64,000 nt of DNA from assembly GCA_020249775.1 (NCBI GenBank), contig JADCFA010000018.1:62001-126000 (forward strand). Direction: 5' to 3'. Below, piece by piece: positions 3,201 to 24,759 of this stretch. This stretch comes from Roseomonas sp. GTDB taxonomy: Bacteria; Pseudomonadota; Alphaproteobacteria; Acetobacterales; Acetobacteraceae. The number at the start of each line of letters is the position of its first letter. Positions within the stretch are counted from its first letter, which is position 1. The translations under genes and the position numbers were made by a program. Under the pieces are notes generated by a model. It worked only from the letters and a program-made list of their open reading frames with translations, was not told where the DNA came from and made no database searches.

Positions 3201-4634
3201 ATTCTGGTGTTCAGCGACGCCGGGGGGACCGGGCGTAGCTACCACGCTGACCTCGCCGCGCGGAACCAGCGCCTTCGTATCCACTATCTCCTCGAACCGG
3301 GCTGGAAAGCCGACGCCGCCATTCAGGGCCTTGGTCGCACCAACCGCACCAACCAGGCGCAGCCGCCGCTGTTTCGTCCGATCGCAACCGACGTGAAAGC
3401 CGAGAAGCGCTTCCTGTCGACCATTGCCCGCCGGCTCGACACGCTCGGGGCGATCACCCGCGGCCAGCGCCAGACCGGCGGACAGGGCCTCTTCAGACCC
3501 GAGGACAATCTCGAAAGCCCCCACGCGCGCGACGCACTGCGGCAGCTCTACCTGCTGATCGTCCGCGGCAAGGTCGATGGCTGCCCGCTCCAGCTCTTCG
3601 AGAGCGCGACCGGCCTCAGCCTGATGGACGACACGGGCATCCGCGACGAGCTGCCGCCGATCACGACCTTTCTCAATCGGTTGCTGGCGCTAACGATCGA
3701 CCTCCAAGGCGTGTTGTTCACCGCCTTCGAGCAGCTTCTCAATGCCCGGATTGCTGGGGCGCTGGCCAGCGGCACCTATGACATCGGGCTGGAGACGCTG
3801 AAGGCCGAGAGCTTCGTCGTCACCGACCGGCACACCATCTATACGCACCCGGCCACCGGCGCCGAGACCCGATTGCTGACGATCACGCAGCGCGAGCGCA
3901 ACCGGCCCCTGTCGCTCGATCAGGCGTTCGAGCTTCTGGCCGACCCGCGGGCAGCCTTGCTCATCAACGAGCGATCCGCCCGGGCGGCGGTGCAGGTGCC
4001 AGCCCCGAGCATTATGCTGGATGATGGTGAAATCGAACGCCGGGTGCGTTTGCTCCGGCCAATGGAACACCACCATGCATCGCTGGCGGCGATGGCGGAG
4101 AGCCATTGGCGGGCGGCTGATCGCGATGTCTTCGCGGCGGCGTGGCAGCGCGAACTGGCGCAGATCCCGGAGTTCACCGACAGCTCGATCCATATCGTGG
4201 CCGGGCTCTTGCTCCCGATCTGGAAGCGCCTGCCGGACGAGTCCACGCGCGTCTATCGCCTCCAAACGGACGACGGCGAACGCATCATCGGTCGGCGAGT
4301 CTCACCGGCGTGGGCAGCGACCGCACTCTCGACCGGCGCGCCGACGCTGACACCCGCCGATGCTTTCGCAGCCTTGGTAGCAGGCGGCACGGTCCTCGAT
4401 CTCGCTGAAGGCCTCCAACTTCACCGCGCGCGGGTGATGGGCGTCCACCGCATAGAACTGTCGGGGTTCTCCGACACGATGCGCGATCGCCTCCGGTCCT
4501 ACGGGCTGTTCCACGAGATCATCTCCTGGAAGCTGCGCATGTTCATTCCCACCGACGCGACCGGTGTGGCCGTCCTCGCCAAGGTGATGGAGCGCTATCC
4601 CGTCGCGCGTATCTCTGAACGGGAGGCCGCGTGA
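300..4634 (+). CDS. Strawberry-notch-type DNA methyltransferase/helicase fusion
   Basis: This 1444-residue protein joins an N-terminal class I SAM-dependent methyltransferase-like fold to an SF2 helicase core. The methyltransferase part shows a VLEPSAGTG motif near residue 148 and an NPPF catalytic motif near 215, typical of N6-adenine methylases. The helicase part shows a Walker A-like GDGTGAGKGRQ near residue 505, a DESHAMQN Walker B box near 613, and a strawberry-notch C-terminal region with GLGRTNRTNQ. The family is common on conjugative elements, where it is thought to modify or protect incoming DNA; that role is inferred. I chose the ATG at 300 because a GAGG ribosome-binding site lies about 9 nt upstream; longer readings extend into unrelated leader sequence. 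The stop overlaps the next start by one base, suggesting translational coupling with the Toprim gene. Confidence 0.88.
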   Translation: MYDRSAPAVQEHTPASHLPRTDRTAALLGAARSILPHLEAGRHVDATLLREAMEASFRASDAAGAWDWKLAYDACEAATVLFVRKYGRALLHKAGSPAAALPLIAKVAGLLPTHTRRTLDSETFQQFSTPIPLGLIAATAAAILPSDRVLEPSAGTGLLAILSEIAGATLILNELAETRASLLSSLFPAVPVTRFDAAQIDDYLDPAAVPNVVLLNPPFSALANVSGRMGDAALRHIASALARLAEGGRLVAITGANCGPDYPAWREAFMRLQERGRVVFTASIDGAVYAKHGTAIDTRLTVFDKLPADDPARFPASPGTAPDARTLMDWVTKQVPSRLTLADSLALPTPSPMTSKRVARPIARGPANSALRSSLDEPSYVDLAYETLDWQPAEGGRLTDAIYEEYALQTIRIPGSQAHPTKLVQSAAMASVAPPKPSYRPRLPERLIIEGVLSDAQLETVIYAGEAHTGFLSGAWTVDATFDLISAAADDAPSAVRFRRGFMLGDGTGAGKGRQSAAIILDNWLRGRRKALWISKSDKLIEDAQRDWSALGMERLLVTPLSRFPQGRPITLPEGILFTTYATLRSDEKAEKISRVRQIVDWLGSDFDGVIIFDESHAMQNAGGGKGERGDVAPSQQGRAGLRLQHALPAARIVYVSATGATTVHNLAYAQRLGLWGGEDFLFATRAEFVAAIEAGGVAAMEVLARDLRALGLYTARSLSYDGVEYELVEHPLTDEQRRIYDAYAGAFSIIHNNLDAAMRAANITSETGTLNPRAKSAARSAFESTKQRFFGHLLTSMKTPTLIRSILRDLDEGHAAVVQIVSTGEALMERRLAEVPTEEWNDVRVDITPREYVLSYLQHSFPVQLYEPFTDAEGNLSSRPVTRDGQPVESREAVARRDRLIEKLASLPPVPGALDQIVQRFGTDMVAEVTGRARRIIRKGDRLMVENRPGSANLAETAAFMDDAKRILVFSDAGGTGRSYHADLAARNQRLRIHYLLEPGWKADAAIQGLGRTNRTNQAQPPLFRPIATDVKAEKRFLSTIARRLDTLGAITRGQRQTGGQGLFRPEDNLESPHARDALRQLYLLIVRGKVDGCPLQLFESATGLSLMDDTGIRDELPPITTFLNRLLALTIDLQGVLFTAFEQLLNARIAGALASGTYDIGLETLKAESFVVTDRHTIYTHPATGAETRLLTITQRERNRPLSLDQAFELLADPRAALLINERSARAAVQVPAPSIMLDDGEIERRVRLLRPMEHHHASLAAMAESHWRAADRDVFAAAWQRELAQIPEFTDSSIHIVAGLLLPIWKRLPDESTRVYRLQTDDGERIIGRRVSPAWAATALSTGAPTLTPADAFAALVAGGTVLDLAEGLQLHRARVMGVHRIELSGFSDTMRDRLRSYGLFHEIISWKLRMFIPTDATGVAVLAKVMERYPVARISEREAA

Positions 4635-5695
4635 TGACCGGCTTTGACGCATCCGATCTGGCGGCCCGCCTTGCTGGCCAGGCCGAGGCCGTGTGCCGGC
4701 ACTATCTGTCCAACGGCACAAGGCAGGGAGGCTACTGGCTTGTCGGCGACGTGCGCAACACGCCGGGCCGCTCGATGTTCGTGCGGCTCAAGGGGCCGGT
4801 GACCGGCAAAGGCGCTGCGGGCAAATGGACCGACGCCGCCACCGGAGAGCATGGCGATCTGCTCGACGTCATCCGCGACACCTGCAGCCTTCCCGACTTC
4901 AAGCAGATTGCTGAGGAAGCCCGGCGCTTCTTGAGCCTCCCGCACCCAGAGCCAGCACAAGAGCCGCGACGAGGCAGGACGTCCGCGGCACCAACGGGAT
5001 CGCCTGAAGCCGCGAGGCGTCTGTTCGCAATGGCGCAGCCGATTAGGGGCACACTCGCCGAAACGTACCTGCGCAGACGCGGCATTACGTCTTTGCACGA
5101 AACCGGATCGCTGCGCTTCCATCCCCGCTGCTACTATCGTCCCGACGAACACGCGCCGACCGAGATTTGGCCGGCAATCATCGCTGCCGTCACAGATCTC
5201 AACGGCGAACTCACCGGCGCGCACCGCACCTGGCTGGACCCCGGCGGCTTCAACGAGGCGACTCTGGGCAAGGCGCCAGTCGAGACACCGAGGCGGGCGA
5301 TGGGCAATCTCCTCGGGTCTGCCGTGCGCTTCGGACTGCCGGGCTCGGTGATGGCGGCCGGCGAAGGCGTCGAGACCATGCTGTCGCTGCGCTGCGTCCT
5401 GCCCACCATGCCGATGGCGGCCGCGCTTTCAGCGGCACATCTCGCCGCCATCCAATTCCCCGACACGCTGCACCGGCTGTATGTCGCGCGCGATGACGAT
5501 CCCGCTGGCGATGCAGCGGTGACGACATTGATGACCCGCGCGGCGGAAGCGGGCATCGAGGCGGTCATCCTGTCTCCGACCCTCGGCGACTTCAATGAAG
5601 ACCTCCGGCTGCTGGGTCTCGCGGCGCTCCGGGCGGCCATCCGTGTCCAGATCGCGCCCCAGGACGTCGCACGCTTCATGGAGCATGCAGCCTAA
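4634..5695 (+). CDS. Toprim-domain primase-like protein (DUF7146/Toprim)
   Basis: This 353-residue protein has an N-terminal DUF7146-like region (residues about 1-100, with the KGAAGKWTDAATGEHGDLLD segment) and a C-terminal Toprim domain. Toprim hallmarks are the Glu in AAGEGVETMLS (near residue 240) and the acidic cluster ARDDDPAGDAA (near 280). Such proteins act like truncated primases or DNA-metabolism factors on plasmids and ICEs. No zinc-binding primase module and no helicase domain are visible, so it probably works with a partner, perhaps the upstream helicase. Translation is coupled: the helicase TGA overlaps the ATG. A GTG one codon upstream could also serve as start; a GGGAGG site lies at 4621-4627. 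Confidence 0.82.
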   Translation: MTGFDASDLAARLAGQAEAVCRHYLSNGTRQGGYWLVGDVRNTPGRSMFVRLKGPVTGKGAAGKWTDAATGEHGDLLDVIRDTCSLPDFKQIAEEARRFLSLPHPEPAQEPRRGRTSAAPTGSPEAARRLFAMAQPIRGTLAETYLRRRGITSLHETGSLRFHPRCYYRPDEHAPTEIWPAIIAAVTDLNGELTGAHRTWLDPGGFNEATLGKAPVETPRRAMGNLLGSAVRFGLPGSVMAAGEGVETMLSLRCVLPTMPMAAALSAAHLAAIQFPDTLHRLYVARDDDPAGDAAVTTLMTRAAEAGIEAVILSPTLGDFNEDLRLLGLAALRAAIRVQIAPQDVARFMEHAA

Positions 5696-9895: not shown

Positions 9896-10159
9896 ATGAT
9901 CACCGCCCGACTGTCGCGGGCCGCACGCGCGCTGCTGGGTTGGACACAGGAGACGCTCGCTGACGAAGCCCGTGTATCACTGACCGCGCTCAAGCGCCTC
10001 GAGTCGGAAAGCGACTTGAAGGTCTACGAGAGCACGCGCGATCAGGTGCGCCGGGCATTCGAAGCGCATGGCATCGTCCTTCTGCAGTCCGACCAAGGTG
10101 AAGGGGTGATGCTCGTCCATGGCCGAAAAGCCGCCAGCGACATGCGGAAGAGAAGCTAG
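9896..10159 (+). CDS. XRE-family HTH transcriptional regulator
   Basis: This 87-residue protein consists of one helix-turn-helix domain of the XRE/Cro type at residues 5-60: ARALLGWTQETLADEARVSLTALKRLE, with the typical W/LTQ..LA motif and recognition helix. A short C-terminal extension contains GIVLLQSD. It starts at ATG 9896 after a GGAGG site. A perfect palindrome immediately upstream is a probable operator. Proteins of this kind often govern ICE transfer or copy number; the target here is inferred only from position. Confidence 0.82.
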   Translation: MITARLSRAARALLGWTQETLADEARVSLTALKRLESESDLKVYESTRDQVRRAFEAHGIVLLQSDQGEGVMLVHGRKAASDMRKRS

Positions 10160-10279
10160 CGCCGTTCCACGACGGCCAAGCCGCGTTGCGGGCCAACAGC
10201 CATACCAGTTGCCGTCGAAGTCGGGCTTGGTTAACGCCATGCTGACACAAAGGGGCTCTGTGATTCCGGGTGGGGCGTC

Positions 10280-10546
10280 GTGACAAAGGCAGAATTCCTC
10301 GAACGGCCGCCCGAGAGCGCGTCGGTCACCGACTATGATCGCGAGCACATGACGCTCTACCTCCGTCTCCTCGATGCCGCGTCGGACGGCGCGGCATGGG
10401 AAGAAGCCGTGTCGATCCTGTTCGGCATCGACCCGACCGCCGAGCCGGAGCGCGCGCGCCGCGTCCACGACAGCCATCTCGCCCGCGCCAAGTGGATGAG
10501 CCAACACGGCTACCGCGAGCTCGCACACGAGCACCCGCGCCAGTAA
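10280..10546 (+). CDS. Conserved ICE hypothetical protein (88 aa)
   Basis: This 88-residue protein begins at GTG 10280 after a G-rich GGTGGGG box. The sequence is helical and charged, with TDYDREHMTLYLRLLDAA, WEEAVSILFGIDP and ERARRVHDSHLARAKWM segments. I recall the same protein directly preceding DUF6499/DUF2285 regulators on many alphaproteobacterial elements, so it is probably a partner or co-regulated factor. No enzymatic motif is seen and no function is assigned. Confidence 0.7.
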   Translation: MTKAEFLERPPESASVTDYDREHMTLYLRLLDAASDGAAWEEAVSILFGIDPTAEPERARRVHDSHLARAKWMSQHGYRELAHEHPRQ

Positions 10547-10661
10547 TGCGGGGGTGATGCCGCGCTGGCATCGCCCGTTTCCGATTCTCCGGCTTCCGCT
10601 AGCGCTCGCGTGGCGGAATCCTGCCCAGCGAAGCTGCTGCAGGTTTGCTGGCGGAGGATGC

Positions 10662-11436
10662 ATGACCCCCGACATCTCGCATTGGCGATCATCCGAGCGC
10701 TACGAATACGTCGAAGATCTCGTCTCGCCTGAACTCGCCTGGGAATGGCTGCGCCGGAACGAAGACTATCAGCGCGACTTCGAGGCCGCTCAGGTTGAAC
10801 CGAACGCCGACACCGCAGCGACCGAGGCGACGAGGTCTCGATGGGGGCTGCGATTTCCTGTTGTCGCCTGCCCTCGACGCCAAAGAGGCCGCGCCCATCT
10901 GGGCGCCCACCTCGAACACTGGCGTCGTGATGCTGACCGCGCAGCCGGCCATCCTACCGAAGGACGCCACGCCATTCGTCATTGACGCGGAGGCAGCCGG
11001 TCAGTCAGACGCGCAAGGCTTCCACTTCCTTCACAACCTCAAAAACGGCGAACGGCTTCAGATCCTGCGCCTCGCCGGCGTGAGCGCAGACGAAGGCGCG
11101 GCGGCCGTCATCCCGCTCGGCCCCGACGGGTTCGATCGGCTCGAGGCCGTCGCCCGCCTCCTGAGTTCGCTCCATGGCCGCTCGATCCCTGCCGACACGC
11201 GGCTGACACGGCAGCAGCGTCACCGTGCGCGACGGATGTTGCAGGCCGTGGACGGTCGTCTCAGCGGCGCCAGCTACCGCGAGATCGCCGCGACACTGTT
11301 CGGCACGCGCGACCTTGCCGATGAACCCTGGAAAACATCCTCGCGCCGGTTCGCGACCATGGAACTTGTGCGCGGCGGCCTCGCCATGATCGCTGGCGGC
11401 TATCGACGCCTGCTGAGTCATCGCCGTCGACGCTAG
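10662..11436 (+). pseudogene. Frameshifted DUF6499-DUF2285 regulator
   Basis: The first frame starts at ATG 10662 (GGAGG upstream). It encodes the DUF6499-type N-terminus: SHWRSSERYEYVEDL, LAWEWLRRNEDYQRDF and RWGLRF. The continuation, LDAKEAAPIWAP, GVVMLTAQP and a full DUF2285 DNA-binding-like domain to 11436, lies in the +1 frame. Removing one T from the TTT at 10854-10856 joins them as LRFLLSPALDA, matching the usual fused protein as I know it. So either a one-base insertion inactivated the gene, or there is a sequencing error, or translation shifts frame. The intact family acts as an ICE transcriptional regulator. The downstream half could still be translated from an internal start. Confidence 0.72.
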
Positions 11437-11561
11437 CAGATCTGGTGTGGGGATTTGCTCCCGCCAGCTTCCCACTCCCTCCGCAACTATGCGCTCCGCC
11501 AGGGTAGCCGCCAACCGCCGCTGTCCCCCTGCGGCTCTCGCGCAACCTCGGAGGCCCGATC

Positions 11562-11843
11562 ATGTCACCCAATGGCACCGGCGTGCCGCAACGCTTTCTC
11601 CGCACGCCCGAAGCGGCCCGCTTCCTCGGTCTCTCGGATCGCACGCTTGAGAAGCACCGGACCTACGGCACCGGTCCCGCCTATCGAAAGCTAGGCGGAC
11701 GCGTCGTCTACGCGCTCGAGGACCTGAAAGCCTGGGCCGACCGCGGCTTCGTCACCTCGACGTCCGATCCGCGCGGCAGTGTCCTTCCCGCCAAGCGCCA
11801 TGCTGCCGTCACGCCTGCCTTTGGCGGCGGCCAAGCCCGCTGA
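11562..11843 (+). CDS. MerR/AlpA-type helix-turn-helix protein
   Basis: This 93-residue protein has a winged-helix DNA-binding domain at residues 10-65 (FLRTPEAARFLGLSDRTLEKHRTYGTGPAYRKLGGRVVYALEDLKAWAD), the excisionase/MerR-like fold in which the wing carries R-x-V-x-Y. The C-terminus is a proline/glycine-rich tail. ATG at 11562 has a GGAGG box. It sits directly upstream of repA, so it may control replication or partition genes, or act as a recombination directionality factor. The adjacent repA makes the first more likely. Confidence 0.78.
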   Translation: MSPNGTGVPQRFLRTPEAARFLGLSDRTLEKHRTYGTGPAYRKLGGRVVYALEDLKAWADRGFVTSTSDPRGSVLPAKRHAAVTPAFGGGQAR

Positions 11844-11853
11844 GCCGTCCGAT

Positions 11854-12915
11854 ATGCCGCCGCGGCAGCGCGCCCTCTCCTCAAGCGAACGATCACGGCT
11901 CGATCCGTTCGTCGTCGCCACCGGTGACGCCAGCCCGCGCGATCAGCGCGATCTGATGGAGCGGCCCTTCTTCTCGCTCGCCAAAGTCAAGCGCACCACG
12001 CCGATCCTCTACGAAGCCGGCGACGTCCGCGTCGAAGTCTTCGCGGTCCCCGAGCATGGCATGGCGACCATCTGGGACGCGGATATCCTGATCTGGGCCG
12101 CAAGCCAGATCGTCGAAGCCGCAAACCTCGGGTTCCAGACCTCACGCTTCCTGCGCTTCACCCCGTATCAGCTCCTGACCGCCATCGGACGCCAGACCGG
12201 ATCACGCGATTACCGGCTGCTCAAGGGCGCGTTGGCGCGCCTTCAATCGACCGTCATCCACACCACTATCCGTAACGGCGAGCATTGGCGGCGCCAACAA
12301 TTCTCCTGGATCAACGAGTGGGGGGAATGCACGACGCGTGACGGCCGCGTGGAGGGCATGGAGTTTGTCCTGCCCGACTGGCTCTATCGCGGTGTCATCG
12401 ACCGCTCGCTCGTCCTCGCCATCGATCCCGCCTATTTCCGGCTGACCGGCGGCATCGAGCGCTGGCTCTATCGGGTCGCCCGCAAACATGCCGGCCGTCA
12501 GCCTGCGGGCTGGACCTTCGAAATCGCGCACCTTCACGCCAAATCGGGCAGCCTGGCGCGTGTTTCCGACTTCGCCATCGACATCCGCCGCATCGTCGCC
12601 CGCCAGCCGCTGCCCGGCTATCGCTTGGCTCTGGAGCGTGCGGGTCGTCAGGAACGCCTGCACATCCGACCCATCAATTTGTCCACAGGGCCTGTGGATG
12701 GCGTTGTGGATGCGATCGGGACTTCGGGCGCAAATGGTATCGGGCTTTCGGGCGCAGCCGTATCGGGACTTCGGGCGCGCGGATCGCAACTAACCCTCTG
12801 GCCTGAAACGGCAATTCCGAGCCTTAACTTAGAGTCTAACAAAGATTCTAACTTCTTGTTGGAGCGGGGCGACGGTGGAAAACCACCCCGCGGCCGACGG
12901 AGCGCGCGGTCATGA
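11854..12915 (+). CDS. repA: Replication initiator protein RepA
   Basis: This is the plasmid-type RepA initiator found on alphaproteobacterial ICEs. Recognisable parts are the conserved opening LSSSERSRLDPFVVATGDASPRDQRDLMERPFFSLAK, the IWDADILIWAASQIVEA block and winged-helix segments through residue 300. The reading frame could begin earlier (ATG 11800 or GTG 11779). I prefer ATG 11854, just past the upstream stop, although no start has a strong ribosome-binding site. The last 80 codons contain DnaA-like boxes, iterons and an AT-rich repeat, so the 3' end probably doubles as replication origin. The stop overlaps parA by 4 nt (ATGA). Autonomous replication of the excised circle is inferred. 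Confidence 0.85.
   Translation: MPPRQRALSSSERSRLDPFVVATGDASPRDQRDLMERPFFSLAKVKRTTPILYEAGDVRVEVFAVPEHGMATIWDADILIWAASQIVEAANLGFQTSRFLRFTPYQLLTAIGRQTGSRDYRLLKGALARLQSTVIHTTIRNGEHWRRQQFSWINEWGECTTRDGRVEGMEFVLPDWLYRGVIDRSLVLAIDPAYFRLTGGIERWLYRVARKHAGRQPAGWTFEIAHLHAKSGSLARVSDFAIDIRRIVARQPLPGYRLALERAGRQERLHIRPINLSTGPVDGVVDAIGTSGANGIGLSGAAVSGLRARGSQLTLWPETAIPSLNLESNKDSNFLLERGDGGKPPRGRRSARS
12679..12860. other. Putative replication origin (oriV) inside the repA 3' end
   Basis: Three DnaA-box-like 9-mers lie at 12679-12687 (TTGTCCACA), 12693-12701 and 12705-12713 (TGTGGATGG and TGTGGATGC). Three iterons follow, with core ATCGGG(A/C)(C/T)TTCGGGCGC, at 12715-12731, 12739-12755 and 12762-12778. The repeat start spacing is 24 then 23 bases, so it is not kept in codon phase. 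An AT-rich patch with two GTTAGA-type repeats (12824-12860, read on the minus strand) lies downstream. The order DnaA boxes, iterons, AT-rich region is that of theta-type origins. Confidence 0.68.
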
Positions 12916-13550
12916 TCGTCGCGTTGCTCAACCAGAAAGGCGGCGTCGGCAAGACGACACTCGCGCTCCATCTCGCCGACGAATGGGCCAGACGCGACCA
13001 GCGCGTCATGCTCATCGACGCCGATCCGCAGGGTTCCGCACTCGACTGGTCCGAAGCTCGTGCCCGTGAAGGCCTGCCCCGCCGGTTCGCCGTCATCGGA
13101 CTGGCGCGCGACACCTTGCACCGCGAAGCGCCCGAACTGGCGCGCGGCGCCGATCATGTGGTGATCGATGGTCCCCCGCGGGTCGCCGGCCTCATGCGCT
13201 CGGCCCTGCTCGCCGCCGATCTCGTCCTCATCCCAGTTCAGCCGTCGCCCTTCGACGGATGGGCGTCGGCCGAGATGCTGGCACTGCTCCGCGAAGCACG
13301 CCTGTTTCGCCCGTCGCTTGTCGCCCGGTTCGTGCTCAACCGCTGTGGCGCGCGCACCATCATCGCACGCGAGACCGCCAAGGCGCTCGCCGAACACGAT
13401 CCGCCGGTGCTGGCGAGCGCGATCGGCCAACGCGTCGGCTTCGCGGATGCCGCGCAATCCGGCCGCCTGATCTCGGAGCTCGACGGCCAGCGTGCCGGCA
13501 CGCGCGAGATCGCCGCGCTCTGCGCCGAAGTTGGGAGGCTCGCACCATGA
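12912..13550 (+). CDS. parA: ParA-family partition ATPase
   Basis: This 212-residue ATPase has the deviant Walker A motif NQKGGVGKTTL at residues 7-17, a DADPQGS switch region near residue 36-42 and a VVIDGPP Walker B near 80. It is the short ParA type lacking an N-terminal HTH. It segregates the replicating form of the element together with the small basic protein encoded next. The start overlaps repA by 4 nt and the stop overlaps the next gene by 4 nt, so repA-parA-RHH form one translationally coupled unit. Confidence 0.9.
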   Translation: MIVALLNQKGGVGKTTLALHLADEWARRDQRVMLIDADPQGSALDWSEARAREGLPRRFAVIGLARDTLHREAPELARGADHVVIDGPPRVAGLMRSALLAADLVLIPVQPSPFDGWASAEMLALLREARLFRPSLVARFVLNRCGARTIIARETAKALAEHDPPVLASAIGQRVGFADAAQSGRLISELDGQRAGTREIAALCAEVGRLAP

Positions 13551-13786
13551 CCAGGCGCAGCTTCGCCGCGCGGCCCGGCGACCCGGACACCTGGATCAAG
13601 GCCGCCGAAGATCCGCGCGGCCGCAGGGCTGATGCCATCGCCTACACCGCGCGCCTCACGATCGACGTCACGCCGGACCTGCGCGGCCGGATCAAGGTCA
13701 CCGCGTTCCAGCGCGGCCAAACCGTCGCGGACATGCTGCGAGAGCTCCTCGCGGGCGCGTTTCCAACCGAGGGGGACGCGCCATGA
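13547..13786 (+). CDS. Small ribbon-helix-helix partner of ParA
   Basis: This 79-residue protein begins MTRRSFAARPGDPDTWIKA. The C-terminal half, RLTIDVTPDLRGRIKVTAFQRGQTVADMLRELL, has the beta-strand plus two helices of a ribbon-helix-helix DNA-binding domain. It overlaps parA by 4 nt, has GGGAGG upstream, and overlaps the DUF2840 gene by 4 nt. The position after parA and the RHH fold suggest a centromere-binding ParB-like role, as in other small type Ib partition systems. It is often annotated simply as a partition protein. Confidence 0.78.
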   Translation: MTRRSFAARPGDPDTWIKAAEDPRGRRADAIAYTARLTIDVTPDLRGRIKVTAFQRGQTVADMLRELLAGAFPTEGDAP

Positions 13787-14298
13787 GCGCACCGGCAATT
13801 CATGGCGCAGCGGGCGTTCGGCCGTCATCACCTCCGGGTCGGCTCACCGAGGTCGAACTGGTTTGGCGCGAGAAGCAGGTCGAGCACTGGATCCGCTTCG
13901 GCCATGCGGTCCACGAACAGATCCTCGACCGGCGGCGCCGCGTCCTCAGCTTCCCCGCCGGGGCTGTCTTCGCCTTCGTCCGCTGGGCATCAAATGGCTT
14001 TGGCACCGTCGTCTCGCGCATCGACATCCTGCGCGCCGTCAGCGCGAGCGAAGGCTATCAGACGCTCCCCTCGGTGCGGCCCGGTGGTGAAATCCTGCTG
14101 CAAACGAGCGGCTGGCCGAACGTCGAACGCGTGCTGCTTCTGATCGACGCGATCGAAGCGCTCGCCATCGATCCCGCCGAAGCTGCGCCTGACTATTGGC
14201 GCCATGTCCATAACCGGCTCGCCGCTGGCGAAGCCCCGCGATCCTACACCCGACAGCAGCACCGCGCCTGGCGCTTGCGACAGAGGGCCGAGCCATGA
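13783..14298 (+). CDS. DUF2840 family protein
   Basis: This 171-residue protein shows the DUF2840 signature: TEVELVWREKQVEHWIRFG, a VFAFVRWASNGFGTVVSRIDILRAV core and a YWRHVHNRLAAGEAP C-terminal block. The family is seen almost exclusively between par genes and the TraF peptidase on alphaproteobacterial ICEs. No catalytic residues are recognisable. It overlaps both neighbours by 4 nt (ATGA), so expression is coupled to partition and transfer-peptidase genes. Function is unknown. Confidence 0.83.
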   Translation: MSAPAIHGAAGVRPSSPPGRLTEVELVWREKQVEHWIRFGHAVHEQILDRRRRVLSFPAGAVFAFVRWASNGFGTVVSRIDILRAVSASEGYQTLPSVRPGGEILLQTSGWPNVERVLLLIDAIEALAIDPAEAAPDYWRHVHNRLAAGEAPRSYTRQQHRAWRLRQRAEP

Positions 14299-14840
14299 CG
14301 CGCGCCGGCTACCTGCTGACGACCACGGGCTGCGCGCTCCTGCTGATCACGCTGGCGATGGTGCACGTTGTACCGCGGCTCGTCTGGAACGCATCGGCCA
14401 GCGTCCCGGTCGGCCTCTATGAGATCGGTTCGGCTACGCCGCTTGAGGTCACCGACCTTGTCGCGGTCAATGCACCGGAGCCGCTTGCCGCATTCTTCGC
14501 GGACCGGGGTTATCTGCCGCGCGGCGTGCCGCTCTTGAAGCGCGTTGCCGCACTTCCAGGCCAGACGGTCTGCCGTTTGGGTGGCGACATTACCGTCGAC
14601 GGAATCAGCGTCGGCAATGCGCTCGACCGCGACCGTGTGGGACGCACGCTGCCTATCTGGAAGGGCTGCCACCGGATCGGAGCGAGCGAACTCTTCCTCA
14701 TGAACATCGGCGTCCGGGACAGCCTGGACGGCCGCTACTTCGGGCCTCTCGCCGTCACCACCGTGATCGGCCGTGCCACCCCTCTCTACACCGACGAAGA
14801 CGGCGACGGTCGCTTCGTCTGGCGCGCGCCGACGCGGTGA
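14295..14840 (+). CDS. traF: TraF-like S26 conjugal signal peptidase
   Basis: This 181-residue membrane-anchored serine peptidase of the S26/TraF group has an N-terminal membrane helix at residues 5-27. The nucleophile serine is in the ASVPVGLYEI motif (about residue 40). The general-base lysine is in LLKRVAALPGQ (about residue 83). In IncP-type systems TraF processes and cyclises the TrbC prepilin, and a trbC gene is present at 28142. Acts at the periplasmic face of the inner membrane. Start codon ATG overlaps the DUF2840 stop. Confidence 0.88.
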   Translation: MTRAGYLLTTTGCALLLITLAMVHVVPRLVWNASASVPVGLYEIGSATPLEVTDLVAVNAPEPLAAFFADRGYLPRGVPLLKRVAALPGQTVCRLGGDITVDGISVGNALDRDRVGRTLPIWKGCHRIGASELFLMNIGVRDSLDGRYFGPLAVTTVIGRATPLYTDEDGDGRFVWRAPTR

Positions 14841-14885
14841 CGGCGCCGCCATGACCCGTTCCACCGCATTGCCAAGGAGGTTGCC

Positions 14886-15224
14886 ATGACCCTGATCGGA
14901 GAATTCATCCGCACCAAGAGCGGCTATGGCGGCCGCATCCGCACGCTCGCGCTCGATGCAGCTCTGGTGCTCGTCCCGGCGGAGCATTCCGACACGGAGA
15001 ACGCGCCCGACTATCGCGTTCACCTCGGCGACGATGCCGACGGACCGGAAGTGGGGGCGGGATGGAAGCGCACCGGCGAGAAGGCCGGCGAATATGTGTC
15101 ATTGCAGCTCGACGATCCGACTTTCGCGCAGCCGATCCGGGCCAACCTCTTCCAGTCGGCCGACGACAAGTCAGCATGGGGCCTCTACTGGAACCGGCCG
15201 ACCAAGCGCAGCGAGCGGGATTGA
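14886..15224 (+). CDS. DUF736 family protein (second copy)
   Basis: This 112-residue protein is a diverged paralogue of the DUF736 protein at 9380. It has the same architecture: IGEFIRTKSGYGGRIRTLAL, YRVHLGDDADGPEVGAGWKR and LQLDDPTFAQPIRANLF. The start at 14886 is preceded by a perfect AAGGAGG site. It lies between traF and the transglycosylase gene, 3 nt upstream of the latter. Two DUF736 copies per element are usual. Function unknown. Confidence 0.85.
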   Translation: MTLIGEFIRTKSGYGGRIRTLALDAALVLVPAEHSDTENAPDYRVHLGDDADGPEVGAGWKRTGEKAGEYVSLQLDDPTFAQPIRANLFQSADDKSAWGLYWNRPTKRSERD

Positions 15225-15227
15225 CCG

Positions 15228-15992
15228 ATGCGCGTCGTCCGTCGCCACCCCGCTGTCGGAGCGAAAGGGGCCGCCTGCCGGCTGCCCTTCCTTCTCCTTT
15301 CCGGCCTTGCCTTTGCCGGGGCGATGCCCGCGCCGTCACTGGCGCAGACATCGCCCATCGAGCGACCCGCTGCAGCCTCGTCCTACGCGCAAGCTGTCGC
15401 CGAGGCAGCGCAGCGGTTCGGCATTCCCGAGCGCTGGATCTGGGCGGTCATGCGCGTCGAAAGCGGGGGTCGTGTTCGCGCGGTCTCGCCCAAGGGCGCA
15501 ATGGGACTCATGCAGATCATGCCCGCGACCTGGGCGGATCTGCGGGCGCGCCACGGGCTGGGCGCCGATCCCTTCGACCCGCGCGACAACATCCTCGCCG
15601 GTGCAGCCTATCTGCGCGAAATGCACGACCGCTACGGCGCGCCGGGCTTCCTCGCGGCCTACAATGCCGGCCCCGGGCGCTACGATGACTATCTTTCAGC
15701 AGGCCGCGCGCTGCCCGCTGAGACCATCGCCTATGTGGCAGCACTCGCGCCGCTGATTGCCAGTGAGCCGCTCGCTGCCGGCGTCGCTGTCGCGACCGTC
15801 GACCCGCTTGCCTGGACCCGGTCGCCGTTGTTCGTCGTGCGCTCCGACGGCAGCGATGCTGCAGAACGATCGCAGCCCAACCGTCAAAGGAACGGCGGCC
15901 GGACGGCAGATCCGCAGCAGCCCCCGATTGCGAGTTCGACGCAGACGGCAGGCATCTTCGTGACCCGCGTTAGTGATGGGGGGCGCCCGTGA
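15228..15992 (+). CDS. VirB1-like lytic transglycosylase
   Basis: This 254-residue secreted protein has an N-terminal signal peptide (hydrophobic residues 19-38, cleavage probably after SLAQ). An SLT/goose-lysozyme-like domain follows at about residues 55-150. The catalytic glutamate is in VMRVESGG (about residue 76). Other motifs are GAMGLMQIMPATW (about 89-101) and AAYNAGPGRYDDY (about 144-156). It cuts peptidoglycan to let the conjugation machinery span the cell wall. The C-terminal 90 residues are low-complexity. The gene is immediately upstream of the relaxase region, as expected for transfer accessory genes. Confidence 0.87.
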   Translation: MRVVRRHPAVGAKGAACRLPFLLLSGLAFAGAMPAPSLAQTSPIERPAAASSYAQAVAEAAQRFGIPERWIWAVMRVESGGRVRAVSPKGAMGLMQIMPATWADLRARHGLGADPFDPRDNILAGAAYLREMHDRYGAPGFLAAYNAGPGRYDDYLSAGRALPAETIAYVAALAPLIASEPLAAGVAVATVDPLAWTRSPLFVVRSDGSDAAERSQPNRQRNGGRTADPQQPPIASSTQTAGIFVTRVSDGGRP

Positions 15993-16239
15993 CCAGAATC
16001 GCACGCTGGCGCGGTTTGGCGGGCTCCCGGAAAGAGGCGGTATGGGAGCGTGGGGACGAAGCAGACACGACCACCAGACGGCGAGATAAAAGCGGCTCGC
16101 CACTCTCGTGCAAACCATTGCTTTCGCATGGCTTTTCACGTGCCGGTCGGTCGGGGGCAGTGCCGGTTGCGGCCATTTCCCACGCCAGATCAACGACATC
16201 TCCGGCACTGTCCGCCGATCGCTCCGCAGGAGGCCGGCG
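15993..16239. other. Relaxase leader, candidate oriT region
   Basis: This 247-base gap precedes the relaxase gene. It contains an inverted repeat GGCGAG (16080-16085) and CTCGCC (16096-16101) enclosing an AT-rich loop, and an imperfect inverted repeat around 16111-16135 (AAACCATTG against GCATGGCTTTT). Origins of transfer often sit upstream of the relaxase gene and carry such repeats beside the nick site. I cannot identify a nick sequence, so this is a candidate only. A short ORF starting at 15989 looks spurious. Confidence 0.35.
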
Positions 16240-18018
16240 ATGAGCGAGGGGGACAGCGACTTCCGGGTCCGGCCAGGCCGCATCGGTTCGACGCGGGCGC
16301 CAAAGCCCAAGAGCTTCATCAATCAGGTCCTGCGCGCCGCCAAGCGGTCTGGGCATGTCAGCACTGGTGGCGCTCCGGGGCGCAAGGCGTCCGGCTATGG
16401 CCGTTCGACCTTCGGGCGAGGACGCATCGCGTTCAGCCGCGCGCGGCTCTTCAGCTCATCGCGCCGCGTCGTCGTCAAAGCGCGGATCGCCCGACACCAG
16501 GGCCGGGCCTTCCGGTCCGCGCCGCTCCATGCGCACCTCTCCTATCTCAAGCGCGACGGCGTCACGCGCGACGGCGAAAAGGCCGTGATGTTCGATGCTG
16601 ACAGCGACCGCGCCGATGACGCCGGTTTCGCCGCGCGCTCAAAGGATGACAGGCACCATTTCCGCTTCATCATCTCGCCCGAGGACGCAGGCGAGATGAC
16701 CGACCTGCGCGCCTTCACGCGCGACCTTGCCCGTCAGATGGAAGCAGACCTCGGCACCCGGCTCGATTGGGTCGCGGTCGATCACTGGAACACCGACAAT
16801 CCCCATGTCCATCTGCTGGTGCGGGGCGTCGACGCCCAGGGCGCCGACCTCGTGATCTCCCGCGATTACATCAGCCGCGGCTTGCGCTCCCGGGCGGAGG
16901 ACCTGGTGTCAATCGAACTCGGCCCGAAGCCGGAGCACGAGATCAAGACGGCGTTGGAGCGCGAAATCACGGCCGAGCGCTGGACGCGCCTCGATGTCGA
17001 GATCCGCATCGCTGCCGACGAGACCGGCTCCATCGATCTTCGTCCCGATCAAACCGGCGCCGCTGATCTCCAGACCCGCCGGCTCATGATCGGTCGGCTC
17101 CAGCACCTGGAGAAGATGGGCCTCGCGTCATCCGCCAGCCCCGGCGAGTGGATGGTCGGGCTCGATGCTGAACGCCACCTTCGCGACCTCGGGCTTCGCG
17201 GCGACATCATCAAGACCATGCACCGCGCTTTCGCCGAGCGCGGTGAAGATCGCGGAGTCGCCGACTATGTCATCGAAGGCGGCAGTGGACAGGCGCCGAT
17301 CATCGGGCGGCTGGTCGATCGCGGCCTGCACGACGAGCTGACGGGCGAAGCCTATGCGGTGATCGACGGCACCGACGGCCGGGCCCACCATGTCCGGTTC
17401 CGCGGTGTCGAGGCCTTCGAGCACGCACCCCCGATCGGCGGCATCGTGGAAGTTCGGCGCTTTGGCCGTGCCGATGAGCCGCGCCCGACACTGGTCCTCG
17501 CAGCCCGGTCAGACCTCGATCTTAGCCGGCAGATCACGGCGCCGGGAGCCACATGGCTGGACCATCGGCTGGTGGAAGCGGACCCTATGCCGCTGTCGAC
17601 GGGGGGCTTCGGCCGCGAGGTGCGCGACGCTCTGCAGGCGCGGGCCGAGCATCTCGCAGACCAAGGACTCGGTCGCCGCCAAGGTCAGCGGATCATCCTG
17701 CAACGCGACCTCCTCGCCACGCTGCGGCGCCGCGAACTGGATGCGGTCGGGGCGCGCCTCTCCGCCGAGACCGGTCTGGCGCACATGAAGCCGACCGCCG
17801 GCGATCAGGTCGCCGGCATCTATCGCCAGCGTCTCGACCTCTCCTCCGGCCGCTTCGCGATGATGGAGAGCATGGGACGCGATGGGGGCCTCGGCTTCCA
17901 GCTCGTGCCCTGGTCCCGCGAGATCGAACGCAAGCTCGGCCAGCATGTCGGCGGCGCCGTGAAGGACGGCGGGGGCATCGAATGGGGTCTCGGCCGCAAG
18001 CGCGGGCTCGAGCTCTGA
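16240..18018 (+). CDS. Relaxase/mobilisation nuclease (VirD2-like, DUF3363)
   Basis: This 592-residue protein nicks the transfer origin and leads the strand into the recipient. The nuclease part (about residues 80-215) has the histidine metal-binding motif: DRHHFRFIISPEDAGEM, then DHWNTDNPHVHLLVRG (motif III, H-x-D-x-x-NPHVH). The candidate catalytic tyrosine is in HLSYLKRDGV. The C-terminal DUF3363 region continues to the end and is typical of this relaxase group on ICEs. ATG 16240 has an ideal AGGAGG. It is followed closely by the traG coupling protein gene, its expected partner. Confidence 0.88.
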   Translation: MSEGDSDFRVRPGRIGSTRAPKPKSFINQVLRAAKRSGHVSTGGAPGRKASGYGRSTFGRGRIAFSRARLFSSSRRVVVKARIARHQGRAFRSAPLHAHLSYLKRDGVTRDGEKAVMFDADSDRADDAGFAARSKDDRHHFRFIISPEDAGEMTDLRAFTRDLARQMEADLGTRLDWVAVDHWNTDNPHVHLLVRGVDAQGADLVISRDYISRGLRSRAEDLVSIELGPKPEHEIKTALEREITAERWTRLDVEIRIAADETGSIDLRPDQTGAADLQTRRLMIGRLQHLEKMGLASSASPGEWMVGLDAERHLRDLGLRGDIIKTMHRAFAERGEDRGVADYVIEGGSGQAPIIGRLVDRGLHDELTGEAYAVIDGTDGRAHHVRFRGVEAFEHAPPIGGIVEVRRFGRADEPRPTLVLAARSDLDLSRQITAPGATWLDHRLVEADPMPLSTGGFGREVRDALQARAEHLADQGLGRRQGQRIILQRDLLATLRRRELDAVGARLSAETGLAHMKPTAGDQVAGIYRQRLDLSSGRFAMMESMGRDGGLGFQLVPWSREIERKLGQHVGGAVKDGGGIEWGLGRKRGLEL

Positions 18019-18045
18019 CCGACAAGGAAGAAAGGACCGCCACCG

Positions 18046-20034
18046 ATGTCCGCGACGAAAATCCTCTGGGGCCAGATCACCACCGTCTTCCTCATCGTGC
18101 TGCTCACGAGCTGGGGCGCGACCCAATGGACCGCCTGGCGGCTCGGCTTTCAGGCGCAGCTCGGCACGCCGTGGTTCGAGCTGGCGGGTTGGCCGGTCTA
18201 CTACCCACCCGCATTCTTCTGGTGGTGGTATTTCTACGACGCCTATGCGCCGCCGATTTTCGTCGAAGGCGCGGTGATCGCCGCCTCCGGCGGCTTCATC
18301 TCCATCGCCGTCGCCATCGCAATGTCGGTATGGCGCGCCCGTGAGGCGAAGAACGTCGAGACCTATGGCTCGGCTCGCTGGGCCGAACTCCGGGAGGTGA
18401 AGGCAGCGGGCCTACTCGGACCGGACGGCGTCGTCCTCGGCAAGCTCGGCGACGCCTATCTTCGGCACGACGGGCCGGAGCATGTCCTGTGCTTCGCACC
18501 GACGCGATCGGGCAAGGGTGTCGGTCTCGTCGTCCCCACGCTCCTCACCTGGCCGGGCTCTGCCATCGTTCACGACATCAAGGGCGAGAACTGGCAGCTG
18601 ACAGCCGGCTTCCGCGCGAGGCATGGTCGCGTCCTGCTGTTCGATCCCACCAACGCCAAGTCGGCCGCCTACAACCCGCTCCTCGAAGTGCGACGCGGCG
18701 AGTGGGAGGTCCGCGACGTGCAGAACGTCGCCGACGTTCTCGTCGATCCTGAAGGTTCGCTCGACAAGCGCAATCATTGGGAGAAAACGAGCCATTCGCT
18801 GCTCGTCGGCGCCATCCTGCATATCCTCTACGCCGAAGAGGAGAAGACGCTGGCCGGTGTCGCCGCCTTCCTGTCGGATCCGCGCCGTCCGATCGAAGCC
18901 ACGCTGAAGGCGATGATGACGACGCCGCATCTCGGAGCCGGCGGCTCCCATCCCGTCGTGGCGTCGACCGCGCGCGAACTCCTCAACAAGAGCGACAACG
19001 AGCGCTCGGGCGTCCTGTCCACCGCCATGTCGTTCCTGGGCCTCTATCGCGACCCGGTGGTGGCGGAGGTGACGCGCCGCTGCGACTGGCGGATCGCCGA
19101 CCTGATCGCCGACGAGAAACCGGCGACGCTCTACCTGGTGGTTCCGCCATCGGACATATCCCGGACGAAGCCGCTCATCCGGCTGGTGCTGAACCAGATC
19201 GGCCGGCGCCTGACCGAAGATCTTCATGCGCGAGACCGGCGGCATCGCGTGCTGATGATGCTCGACGAGTTTCCAGCTCTCGGCCGGCTCGACTTCTTCG
19301 AGAGCGCACTCGCTTTCATGGCGGGTTACGGCCTGAAGTCGTTCCTCATCGCCCAGTCGCTGAACCAGATCGAGAAGGCCTATGGCCCGAACAATGCGAT
19401 CCTCGACAACTGCCATGTGCGGGTGAGCTTCGCGACCAATGACGAACGCACCGCCAAGCGCGTGAGCGACGCGCTCGGCACCGCCACCGAGATGAAGGCG
19501 ATGCGGAACTATGCCGGGCATCGGCTCAGCCCATGGCTCGGTCACCTGATGGTCTCGCGCTCGGAGACGGCGCGGCCGCTCCTCACCCCCGGCGAAGTGA
19601 TGCAACTGCCAGCGACCGACGAGATCGTCATGGCCGCCGGTGTCCATCCCATCCGAGCCAAGAAGGCCCGCTATTTCGAGGATCGCCGGTTCAAGGAGCG
19701 CATCCTGCCGTCGCCGGATCCGACGAAATGCAGGCGTTCGACTCGAAAGGACGCCTGGGCCGAGTTGAAGCCGCAGCGGCCCGACGCAGACCTCGCGGCC
19801 CAGCTCGACAAAGCGGAAGACGCAGCCAATGGCGGTCTGCGGCGCGAGCCGGAGCTGCCCGACCATGTCGCGATCGCCAAGGAAACGACCGGACCGGCAG
19901 CGGCCGACGAGTTCGCCATCATGCTGGACGATGAGCCCGAGGACGCCGCGCGGCAGCGGCAGGCGCTGCGGCAGCAGATGCGCGGCGTGGCGTGGCAGGT
20001 GGCGCTCGATCCCAATGACGGCATCGATCTGTGA
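18046..20034 (+). CDS. traG: TraG/VirD4-type coupling protein
   Basis: This 662-residue inner-membrane ATPase links the relaxosome to the mating pore. Two membrane segments lie at about residues 8-24 and 72-95. The Walker A motif APTRSGKGVG is at 151-160 and the Walker B block VLMMLDEFPALG near residue 400, followed by the conserved SFLIAQSLNQIEKAYG sensor region. The C-terminal 110 residues are charged and variable, as in other TraG proteins, and probably recognise cargo. The start is 27 nt after the relaxase stop; a CopG-like gene follows 7 nt downstream. Confidence 0.93.
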   Translation: MSATKILWGQITTVFLIVLLTSWGATQWTAWRLGFQAQLGTPWFELAGWPVYYPPAFFWWWYFYDAYAPPIFVEGAVIAASGGFISIAVAIAMSVWRAREAKNVETYGSARWAELREVKAAGLLGPDGVVLGKLGDAYLRHDGPEHVLCFAPTRSGKGVGLVVPTLLTWPGSAIVHDIKGENWQLTAGFRARHGRVLLFDPTNAKSAAYNPLLEVRRGEWEVRDVQNVADVLVDPEGSLDKRNHWEKTSHSLLVGAILHILYAEEEKTLAGVAAFLSDPRRPIEATLKAMMTTPHLGAGGSHPVVASTARELLNKSDNERSGVLSTAMSFLGLYRDPVVAEVTRRCDWRIADLIADEKPATLYLVVPPSDISRTKPLIRLVLNQIGRRLTEDLHARDRRHRVLMMLDEFPALGRLDFFESALAFMAGYGLKSFLIAQSLNQIEKAYGPNNAILDNCHVRVSFATNDERTAKRVSDALGTATEMKAMRNYAGHRLSPWLGHLMVSRSETARPLLTPGEVMQLPATDEIVMAAGVHPIRAKKARYFEDRRFKERILPSPDPTKCRRSTRKDAWAELKPQRPDADLAAQLDKAEDAANGGLRREPELPDHVAIAKETTGPAAADEFAIMLDDEPEDAARQRQALRQQMRGVAWQVALDPNDGIDL

Positions 20035-20720: not shown

Positions 20721-23700
20721 CTACAGCGTCTCGGACGGGTCCGCTGACGGGCTAGCGACCGACCCAAACGCTAGGATGGCGTCGAGATGGCGCATGACGT
20801 GCTCGAAATCGGAGCCGAGCACCGGCGGACGATCCCCGACCATTTCAGCAAACGCCCGGTGCAGAAGGACCCGCGAACGCGCGTTTGGGGTTCGGTATGC
20901 AAACGCGACCTTCTCCGGTGAGTCGACACCCCGACGGATCGCGTAGGCGAAGATTTCGAGCACCGCAGGATTCGCAGCGACCTTTTCCTTGGCCGTCAGC
21001 GTTTGGCGGATAACCTCAGCGGCCGCTGCAGCGACCATGTAGAGTTGTCGATTGGCGATCCGATTGATCAGGTCGCGCGTGCGCTTGCAGACACCGATCT
21101 TGGCCGCGGGAACGCCAAGTGAGGCCTCGATGCGATCGAAGGGTTCGCCTTTGAGCCACGCAGACAGCGCGGTCTTGAGTAGCGCCATTTCCGCAGCCGT
21201 GCTGTCGCCGCCGGTCTTCTTGCCGCGAGTAACAGCCTTGACCGTCTCGACAGCTGATCCAAACAGCAAAGAGTAGCTTGTGCGATCGGCGATCATGAAA
21301 TCGATTAGCCATTCCATCCAATCGCATACGGTCGAGGGTAACGAGTCGATTTCCGCCTCAACTTTCGCCGCAATGGCCGCTAATGGCTCGACCGCAAGAC
21401 CCGTGAAGGCGGCGATCTGCATCACGGGCACCGACGTATGTTCAGTGGCCGTGTCAAGCGCGGTCTTCAACGCACCGAGTTTCTCGTCGAAAGCGGCATC
21501 CTGCTTGGCTTGCCGCGCCTGGTATCCGGCAAAGGAACGGCTGATCATCTCGACCGCCATTTCGACGGCCGTGTCTTCCGCTTCGCCCGCCCGAAGTCGG
21601 CTCAGGAGGTAGCGCACACCCGCACCAGAGAGTTCGCCGGCCTGAATGCGGTCAAGCAACGGAGTCAGCGGATCGTCGATCGTCACGCATTGATCGTTCT
21701 CCGGCAGCACCGCCTTAAGCATCTTGAAGGCTTCGCTTTCGGGGGCGGAATTGGCGTCGAATTGCACCACTGGTTCCGGAATCAGGAGCACTGTACCGTT
21801 CGCCAGATGGCCGGCGCGTCCGGCACGACCGGCTGCGTTCAATATCTCATGGCCTTCGAGCGGTTTGCGGCCATCTTCATTGTGCCGCATCGTGCCTGCC
21901 AAGATTGCGATTTGCGCGGGAAGGTTCATGCCCTGCGCCAGCGTCGGGGTCGCGACGATGACGTTGACGCCTCCGGCCTTCTTGAAGACCGATTCGGCGA
22001 GCCGTCGCTCGAGCGGGATCATGTCTCCGTTATGTGGGATTGCAGGCGCAGTTGGGTCGAACAGCGAGCAGCATTCGGCACCGAGTTCAGCCACCGTGTC
22101 GACCCAGAGGCTATTTTCGGTTTCAGTGAGAGCGGGTGGAGACGGCAGCTTGCCACGAAGCCGCTTCGCCGTGGTCGGCGCGTGGTCGGCTTGCTGTACG
22201 AACATGATGGCCTTCAGTCCAGCAACAGCCGCGTTCTTGGCCAAAGCTGCCCCAACATCATTCGCGTTTGGGCTTGCGCCGCCCGTCCCATGCCCGAGGA
22301 CGACGGGCACATCGGAAAGCCGCACGAGCCGCATGTCGGTCGGTACGGTTTTAAGCCAGGCATGGTGCAGCCCGAACAATGCATATGCGTCGACATTGAG
22401 CGGTGGTGCCTTGTAGGACGCTTTGAGCCGTTTCTTACGCCGGACGATCATGTTTGCGGCATCGACTTGCGCCTTCGGATAGATCACCACGCCGCGTGCC
22501 TGCCGGCTCGGCTTCCAGGGATCATGAAAACCGACGCAGGGACGCCCGGTAATCGCGGCAAGCCAATCGGCCACCTCTCCGGCATTCTTCAGCATCGCAG
22601 AGAGCAACAGGAGATCGGCGTTTGGTGCGCGTTTGATAGCATGGAGCAAACACAGCATTGCGTCCACGCTACGGGATCCGCCGCCATCGGGGCTCAACAG
22701 ATGGCATTCATCGAAGACCAACAGGCCAAGATCGCTCATGTCGGTGTCGGTGAAGCTCAGCAGCGCAAGGCATCGCTCGGGAGTCATCACTTCGATCGAT
22801 TCGAGCTCTGGTCCGCGGATCAGCGCGGTGAGGTCGCCATCGGCCGACACGACGCTGTCTATCAGACTCTCTGGAAAGCTCTCGGCAAGATCATCACGAA
22901 GCTGATCGACCAGAGCCAAGGTCGGGACGAGGAAGATGACCTTCTTGCCGGCGGACAAGGTCGAGGCGATCTTCAACTCTGAAAGCGTGGTTTTGCCCGC
23001 GCCGGTGGGTAGTACCAGCACCGCTGACTTTCCAACATCCAGAAAATGCGTAGCCAGAGCGGCGCGGTGATTCGGCCAAAGCACTGGTTTGCTCGACGCG
23101 CGATGGCGAACCCACAGCTTCCAAGAATTCTCTTCCGCACCCGCGGGCGGTGGGATTCGAGTGACGCCAACGTCCTCAAGTCCGTCTGCGACGTGCATAA
23201 GCAACCGCGCCAGATGACGCGGTCCCGCATAGCTGGAGGTAATATTGAGGCCAGTGTCCGGAAGACTCAGCGGACGGGTTGCGAGTTCCACCACTCTGGC
23301 GAAGGCAAGCTGAGGGGTTTCGAACGATTGATAGGCGAGCTCGACACGAGGACGATCGAGCAAGCGTGCTACCATTTGCACCAGACCGCTCCAGCACAAT
23401 CCGTACAACGCCTGCGTCGCCCGTTCATCAAACGGCGCATCGGCCCCAGGCCGCAATCCTGCCAAACGGTTGGCACGCTCGAGGATCGCTTCAAATCGTT
23501 CCAAGGCAAGGTCTTCGACGCTTTCTACCAGAGCGCCGCGATGAATATCTTCAAGACGGGGGCCTGCGAGTTCGCGAGCGGCTTCACGCGCGTCAGGGCT
23601 CTGCTCAGCGATCAGGAACAGAAGTGGTGCCGATACGCGCGGATCAATGGCCCGCGTGGTCAGGAGTTCATCGCGCTCCTCGAGATCCGGGCGGATACGG

Positions 23701-23978: not shown

Positions 23979-24759
23979 CGAACGTCGAAATCCGCGCCCA
24001 GACGCGATCCGCGAAATCAGCAAACCAGGCCCGAACGTCGTCTAGCGGGAGCGTGTTACCGCCGCGCTTGTCCAAAGCCACCTGAAGAGAATCATAGTCC
24101 TTGAACAACGCGACGCATTTGGCCGCTGGAAACTGCGATGGCGAAACAGTCAGCGATGCTTCAAACGCCAGCGGGCGCGTCTGAATCAGCGTGTCATATG
24201 CCGTCTTGAGCTCGTGTCCATTGAAGCCGTAGTTTTCCAGCAAGGCGAGAACGGCTTGAGCCAGCTGATTATCGCGCTTGCCAGAAATGTACTCACGAAA
24301 CGACTTCAGCACCTGGCTCTGGAATTTTTGCCGAGCATGGATCGTGCATTTGTACTCGTATACGGTCGCCTTCGTCAGCGTCTTCGTCGCCGGATCGACC
24401 GTAATCTTGACGCCATCAGTGCCCTGGTTGGTCGCCTTAAGGTGCGAATTGTCGATCTTTTCATCGCCCGTCTTGCCCTTGCGGGCAGCGACCCAGCAAA
24501 TGATCTCGAATAAAAGACCATCGCGATGTTCGATACCCTTTTCCGTCGTAGGATGCAGATCTTTGTCGAGCGTCTCTTTCAGCCCGGCCGTGATTTTCGG
24601 CGGCGCCAATTGCGTGCCCACAAGGATCAGCGCCGCGTGGAAAGCCTGACCGACCAACACCAGCGCGACAAGCTGCGCGAGATCGTCAGGGGCATCGACG
24701 CTCCATTGTTCTCCCTCGCATTGGGGGAGCGCCGCCATAGGATTGAGAGTGATCGGCAC
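23971..24759 (-). CDS. hamA: Hachiman effector nuclease HamA (DUF1837)
   Basis: This 262-residue protein fits the DUF1837/HamA family. A PD-(D/E)XK nuclease core is visible: RDGLLFEIICW (E85), TDGVKI (D115) and YEYKCT (E135-x-K137) as the E-x-K catalytic pair. HamA forms a complex with the HamB helicase and degrades DNA when infection is sensed; that is known for the family, not shown here. The start is GTG 24759, 2 nt after the preceding stop; an ATG at 24738 is an alternative. AbpA-type proteins are a related alternative. Confidence 0.83.
   Translation of the reverse strand: MPITLNPMAALPQCEGEQWSVDAPDDLAQLVALVLVGQAFHAALILVGTQLAPPKITAGLKETLDKDLHPTTEKGIEHRDGLLFEIICWVAARKGKTGDEKIDNSHLKATNQGTDGVKITVDPATKTLTKATVYEYKCTIHARQKFQSQVLKSFREYISGKRDNQLAQAVLALLENYGFNGHELKTAYDTLIQTRPLAFEASLTVSPSQFPAAKCVALFKDYDSLQVALDKRGGNTLPLDDVRAWFADFADRVWARISTFDV

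Follow-up and report, generated by a model that had tools for sequence, protein, structure and literature searches.

The locus raises the question of whether an ICE carries its own origin of replication, and whether that origin is written into the 3′ end of its initiator gene. The window (the whole 64,000-nt stretch of DNA that was analysed) holds the ICE in its integrated form, with the backbone order HTH gene, repA, parA, DUF2840, S26 peptidase, transglycosylase, relaxase DUF3363, TraG and trb genes. Judged from sequence and fold comparisons, positions 12679-12856, wholly inside repA, very probably form a RepA-dependent ICE origin of replication overlapping the repA 3′ end, and the earlier reading of an origin embedded in the coding end of repA is well supported.

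Gene context

Gene names in the repA-parA-G series follow PMC4741004, and RepA residues were numbered with codon 11851 as residue 1, the likely ATG start being residue 2 (Table 1). The PF10134 RPA match of RepA scored 278 bits, against a curated cut-off of 27. By gene order, the HTH_17 gene is a candidate rdfS (excision factor) of ICEMlSymR7A/Tn4371-like ICEs, PMC8627217 giving the order rdfS, initiator, DUF2840, traF for proteobacterial ICEs and plasmids including Tn4371. No exact direct repeat of at least 15 bp was found between the integrase end (window 39200-42500) and either the 62 kb upstream or the first 15 kb of the window, and the ICE borders were therefore left unset. From 11562 to 13786, the rdfS-like HTH gene, repA, parA and the parG-like gene are tightly packed, some of them overlapping, and this packing suggests joint activation of excision, replication and partition.

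Elsewhere in the window, an opposite-strand cargo block (20721-25559, minus strand) lies between traG and the trb genes, and includes a large DEAD-box helicase with matches to Hachiman HamB profiles (E 1e-34); from its position, the gene next to it (23971-24759) is a candidate HamA, but it gave no match in PADLOC. At its upstream end, the ICE core carries a Strawberry-notch-like helicase/methyltransferase fusion of 1501 aa (AAA_34 + Helicase_C_4; 129-4634, plus strand), followed by a Toprim primase-like gene (4631-5695).

Table 1. Features of the repA region and of the ICE, in window positions.
Feature	Position	Strand	Remarks
HTH_17 gene	11562..11843	+	directly upstream of repA; PF12728 7e-10
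repA, replication initiator	11854..12915	+	PF10134 RPA, E 7e-83 over residues 30-259
First recognition helix of RepA (residues 118-133)	12202..12249	+	S118/R119/D120 vary with iteron base 7
Second helix-turn-helix of RepA (codons 225-250)	12523..12600	+	specificity half of the proposed cassette
Codon 244 (Asp)	12580..12582	+	D/E with GG iterons, Q with CA iterons
DnaA box TTGTCCACA	12679-12687	+	1 mismatch
DnaA-box-like site TGTGGATGG	12693-12701	-	2 mismatches; faces first box
Third DnaA-box-like site TGTGGATGC	12705-12713	-	2 mismatches
Iteron 1 GATCGGGACTTCGGGCGCA	12714-12732	+	
Iteron 2 TATCGGGCTTTCGGGCGCA	12738-12756	+	
Iteron 3 TATCGGGACTTCGGGCGCG	12761-12779	+	codon phase differs from copies 1-2
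Spacer	12780..12822	+	between iteron 3 and AT-rich patch
AT-rich repeat patch	12824-12856	+	proposed duplex unwinding element; TTAACTTAGAGTCTAACAAAGATTCTAACTT at about 12824-12854
AT-patch repeat TTAGAGTCTAAC	12829-12840		
AT-patch repeat AAAGATTCTAAC	12841-12852		
parA	12912..13550	+	AAA_31/CbiA; ATGA overlap with repA stop
Small gene 3′ of parA	13547..13786	+	candidate partition partner, parG-like by position
Integrase	38288-39544		

Parts of the putative origin

DnaA-box-like sites, then three 17-bp iterons at steps of 24 and 23, then an AT-rich repeated patch had been predicted, all within the repA reading frame. Each of these parts was found (Table 1), the 17 bp being the core of a 19-bp unit conserved among homologues (TATCGGGACTTCGGGCGCA), and at the second DnaA-box position some homologues (e.g. 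L087, L105) have a perfect TGTGGATAA. As the original prediction had also stated, the step of 23 breaks codon phase, while that of 24 keeps it; copies 1 and 2 are read as (A/G)IG(T/L)SGA, and copy 3 as the different peptide VSGLRARG. The three window copies are identical at 15 of 17 positions, and since none of 300 synonymous recodings of the encoded peptide rose above 11/17, nor any of 300 base shuffles above 10/17, the triple repeat was not attributed to chance. No fourth copy with up to two mismatches was found in the whole window, and a reading of the iterons as operator sites with further copies elsewhere was rejected on that ground. The AT-rich patch has two TCTAAC repeats and a GC content of 35%, compared with 65% for repA, and includes the lowest-GC 40-mer of positions 10001-20000.

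The features of an iteron-type theta origin found here are tandem direct repeats at fixed helical spacing, adjoining DnaA boxes, adjoining AT-rich repeats, and an initiator of WH1-WH2 fold. Counted against the origin reading were the number of iterons, only three, and the weakness of the second and third DnaA boxes in the window.

The TCTAAC repeats could instead be a parA operator or a centromere, that is, sites for the parG-like protein and not an unwinding element, with the iterons alone as the origin. This assignment draws on their place just upstream of parA and on their form (short, spaced and partly palindromic, TTAGAnTCTAA); it is weakened by locus comparison, in which 27 of 116 loci had no parA in the adjoining 1.6 kb and TCTAAC was retained in 20 of the 27, among them L028, where DUF2840 follows directly, and it is considered unlikely.

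Non-coding arrays and plasmid relatives

In L028, L118, L120, L123, L130 and L131, the repA frame ends ahead of the 24/23 array, leaving both the array and the TCTAAC repeats in non-coding DNA; the four representatives of this form included in the tree make up one clade, near coding-array clades. Both forms occur on plasmids, the coding form on pMLb, a Pseudomonas plasmid and a Ketogulonicigenium plasmid, and the non-coding form on Citrobacter and Bradyrhizobium (24/23) and Methylocystis (23/23) plasmids. The Bradyrhizobium plasmids p183/p184_2 were dropped as evidence of autonomous replication, since p184_2 also has repABC. One iteron was lost in L153, and one iteron together with the reading frame in L148, where the AT patch was retained. 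In L124 (G019:C1:462500-464900), repA is interrupted after the core, the continuing frame resembling, by eye, an IS630-type transposase, and given this interruption the copy is without its origin.

Repeats of this kind in iteron plasmids also have control roles, and the array might bind RepA for control only (copy-number titration, handcuffing, autorepression), with the true origin elsewhere. For a few RPA plasmids (pPDL2, pUT1), the origin lies upstream of repA (PMC3516476). On pGDIPal5II, a 16.6-kb circular plasmid with a RepA of the present type as its sole annotated initiator, the only triple repeat of at least 12/17 at steps 15-39 was the iteron array, and no triple repeat of this kind was found upstream of repA in six further records of plasmid relatives (best 7-9 of 17). 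With the DnaA boxes and the AT-rich patch also adjoining the array at fixed distance, a role in control alone is regarded as quite improbable.

RepA fold and proposed iteron recognition

The AF2 model of RepA (mean pLDDT 74) matched, over residues 25-278, RctB domains 2-3 (Z 17.8) and a RepE-type protein with iteron and DUE DNA (8aan, 8ac8; Z 13.3-13.7). These matches came from fold comparison alone, as no PDB relative was found by sequence profile. Residues 284-354, coded by the origin DNA, had pLDDT below 50 and are predicted to be disordered, and the protein would therefore need little from a segment that the DNA needs.

We infer that RepA binding, patch melting and replication take place at 12679-12856. 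RepA, as a two-winged-helix initiator of the RepE/RctB fold, would bind the three iterons, host DnaA would occupy the boxes flanking them, and the TCTAAC AT-rich patch, about 45 bp beyond the iterons, would melt and load the helicase. The excised circle would replicate theta-wise and so survive cell division and transfer, and the reading frame would cross the origin as a disordered tail with its sequence dictated by the DNA. At iteron positions 14-15, residue 244 of the second recognition helix would read GG as D/E and CA as Q, and iteron base 7 would be read by residues 118-120 of the first recognition helix.

At iteron positions 14-15, where the bases are GG or CA, the three copies agree in 95 of 96 homologues, compared with about 31 expected if they were independent (a contrast inflated by relatedness). 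Residue 244, located in the second recognition helix (238-251), is D/E in 63/63 GG types and Q in 31/31 CA types; column 244 carries 0.91 bits of information with iteron type, column 236 carries 0.73, and all others at most 0.41. On a tree built without these sites, GG/CA and residue 244 changed nine times each, with six independent concordant switches on well-supported branches, nine on all branches, and none discordant (p 0.03). Contacts of D/E to the C opposite G, and of Q to A, are familiar from protein-DNA recognition. In two independent cases, a G-to-C change of iteron base 7 is accompanied by D120Q, early in the first recognition helix. This position-specific covariation with the recognition helices indirectly supports RepA as the iteron binder. 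Part of it could be hitch-hiking, gene and site being inherited together, which is disfavoured because the switches are independent. What is new here, among the homologues compared, is that GG/CA switches in all iteron copies together and tracks RepA residue 244 exactly. One homologue, L103, has mixed iterons (AAAC, GAAC, CACAC) and His at residue 244, and is a possible intermediate between the GG and CA specificities.

For sister pairs differing in iteron type, DNA identity was 83-97% over codons 30-224, against 65-81% for codons 225-250 and 65-71% across the iterons; in most of these pairs it rose again in the spacer, AT patch and parA. Sister pairs sharing an iteron type showed no such dip at codons 225-250 or in the iterons, and in the more distant switch pairs L072/L053 and L081/L097 the dip was smaller or absent. 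One cassette, K237 A239 F243 D244 paired with GGGCGTg iterons, is shared by backbones that fall outside any single clade (p-AU 1e-5), and iteron type changed 12 times on the backbone tree compared with 2 on the cassette tree, in which the iterons themselves were included. Synonymous differences in codons 225-250 were 0.39 for switch pairs and 0.24 for same-type pairs. Block recombination was tested most strictly on third positions in codons 225-250 with the specificity codons removed; this gave 10 changes of iteron type compared with 13-14 in controls, and is only weakly supportive; a laxer count of 3 changes was discarded, since the specificity codons had been included.

These comparisons indicate that the recognition helix of RepA and the iterons change together, with recombination as the likelier route. 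It is tentatively proposed, with slightly less than even confidence, that the DNA-reading helix and the iterons, lying within about 260 bp, form a specificity cassette swapped together by short-tract recombination between ICE backbones, by which an element would change its specificity of replication, and probably of incompatibility, in a single step, and that the embedded layout is kept for this linkage.

Conservation of the repA 3′ end

RepA homologues were gathered from genome contigs and from the host's order, giving 148 non-redundant 3′ ends, and these were searched for triple repeats blind to repeat sequence and spacing. The best triple stood at exactly 24/23 in 105 of the 148, at 23/23 in 5, and at 33/23 in 3. 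The 24/23 spacing persists down to 47% protein identity, and is kept with wholly unlike repeat sequences (e.g. TCGGGACTTCGGGCGCA, CGTGCCATCGGGAACC, ATCCGTGCTATC). In 48/56 homologues, DnaA-box-like sites lie within the 42 nt that precede iteron 1, compared with 0.2% of core windows, and in 40/56 the first TCTAAC follows iteron 3 at a distance of 55 nt. Across 49 diverse homologues, codon identity in excess of expectation was 0.162 in the DnaA stretch, 0.249 in the iterons, 0.291 in the AT patch and 0.005 in the tail after the patch; RepA core segments of equal length reached at most about 0.11, below all three origin stretches, and synonymous codons are frozen in the origin segment only.

In the 23/23 lineage, the three iteron copies lie in three reading frames and encode unrelated peptides, and TCTAAC was absent from the stretch searched (L162-L167). 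The 23/23 homologues L162, L163, L164, L166 and L167 are mostly from the host's genus, and their unwinding element, if any, differs.

The repeats had been predicted to be kept as DNA and not as protein repeats, and this was borne out: DNA repeats, 24/23 spacing, DnaA boxes and AT repeats persist while residues and frame change and where the frame stops short of the array, the opposite of homologues that keep the amino acids and lose the DNA repeats. It is the DNA, not the peptide, that is conserved in the repA 3′ end.

The array could also be a relic, the ICE depending on the host chromosome and the origin being a decaying plasmid remnant. Losses of this kind are on record, since Mesorhizobium ICESyms have lost the initiator (PMC8627217), the L124 copy is interrupted, and L148 and L153 are each one iteron short. 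Strong purifying selection on the DNA across the 49 diverse homologues, the change of iteron copies in concert with RepA, and the intact arrays on plasmids make decay a highly improbable account. A selected glycine-serine peptide motif in the RepA tail, with the DNA repeats secondary, accords with the tail being in frame and with some conserved residues (QLxLWPE, NLESN), but is almost certainly wrong, since the frame differs between copies 1-2 and copy 3, synonymous sites are held fixed, the tail is predicted to be disordered, and L148 lost the frame and kept the DNA patch; for the iterons it was ruled out by the 24/23 arrays in non-coding DNA and by the frame-shifted lineage.

Relation to known systems

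Origins within initiator genes are uncommon, and already known. In phage lambda, iterons and an adjacent AT-rich tract likewise lie within the reading frame of the cognate initiator gene, O (PMC7466680), but the lambda origin is mid-gene, whereas the putative origin in repA occupies a dispensable 3′ end, the stop preceding the array in several relatives; PF10134 is the only Pfam match of RepA, and the likeness to lambda O is one of layout. Alphaproteobacterial repABC replicons have oriV inside the initiator gene repC (PMC3155836, which names further origins inside initiator genes); repC is without iterons or DnaA boxes, whereas both are found here, with an RPA/RepE-like initiator (PF10134). 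The plasmids pUT1 and pPDL2 share with the present locus an RPA (PF10134) initiator, iterons, AT-rich DNA and a DnaA box, and differ in the reported upstream position of their origin; a pPDL2 mini-replicon replicates (PMC3516476). No array was seen in the repA 3′ end of plasmid-type RPA homologues (35-37% identity). F plasmid RepE/ori2 and RctB resemble the present system in having two winged helices (Z 13-18 across residues 25-278), direct-repeat iterons and an AT-rich DUE, but have about 10-12% identity to RepA. The F plasmid and RctB origins sit outside the initiator gene.

ICEMlSymR7A/Tn4371-like ICEs share the order rdfS, initiator, DUF2840, traF, relaxase, traG, trb; in the passages of PMC8627217 consulted, the initiator is noted as Rep_3 and an origin is not described, whereas an embedded array is described here. 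In the literature searched, of limited coverage, no description was found of an origin inside an RPA-type repA of ICEs, nor of ICEs in which iterons, DnaA boxes and an AT patch together span an RPA gene's 3′ end and are linked to a recognition helix.

This large ICE family is mostly chromosomal and occurs as well on alpha- and gammaproteobacterial plasmids, those of Enterobacteriaceae among them. It probably bears an iteron origin, missed by annotation because it lies in the coding end of repA or right behind it, and the question of ICE replication becomes directly testable. The pairing of D/E or Q at residue 244 with GG or CA in the iterons provides a natural specificity-switch set for decoding origin choice by winged-helix initiators, and bears also on how incompatibility groups arise. 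The non-coding 24/23 array of L182 (NZ_CP042479.1, Citrobacter freundii) belongs to a replicon type found on large conjugative plasmids of the IncA and IncP types in Enterobacteriaceae, where the replicon is probably an integrated element.
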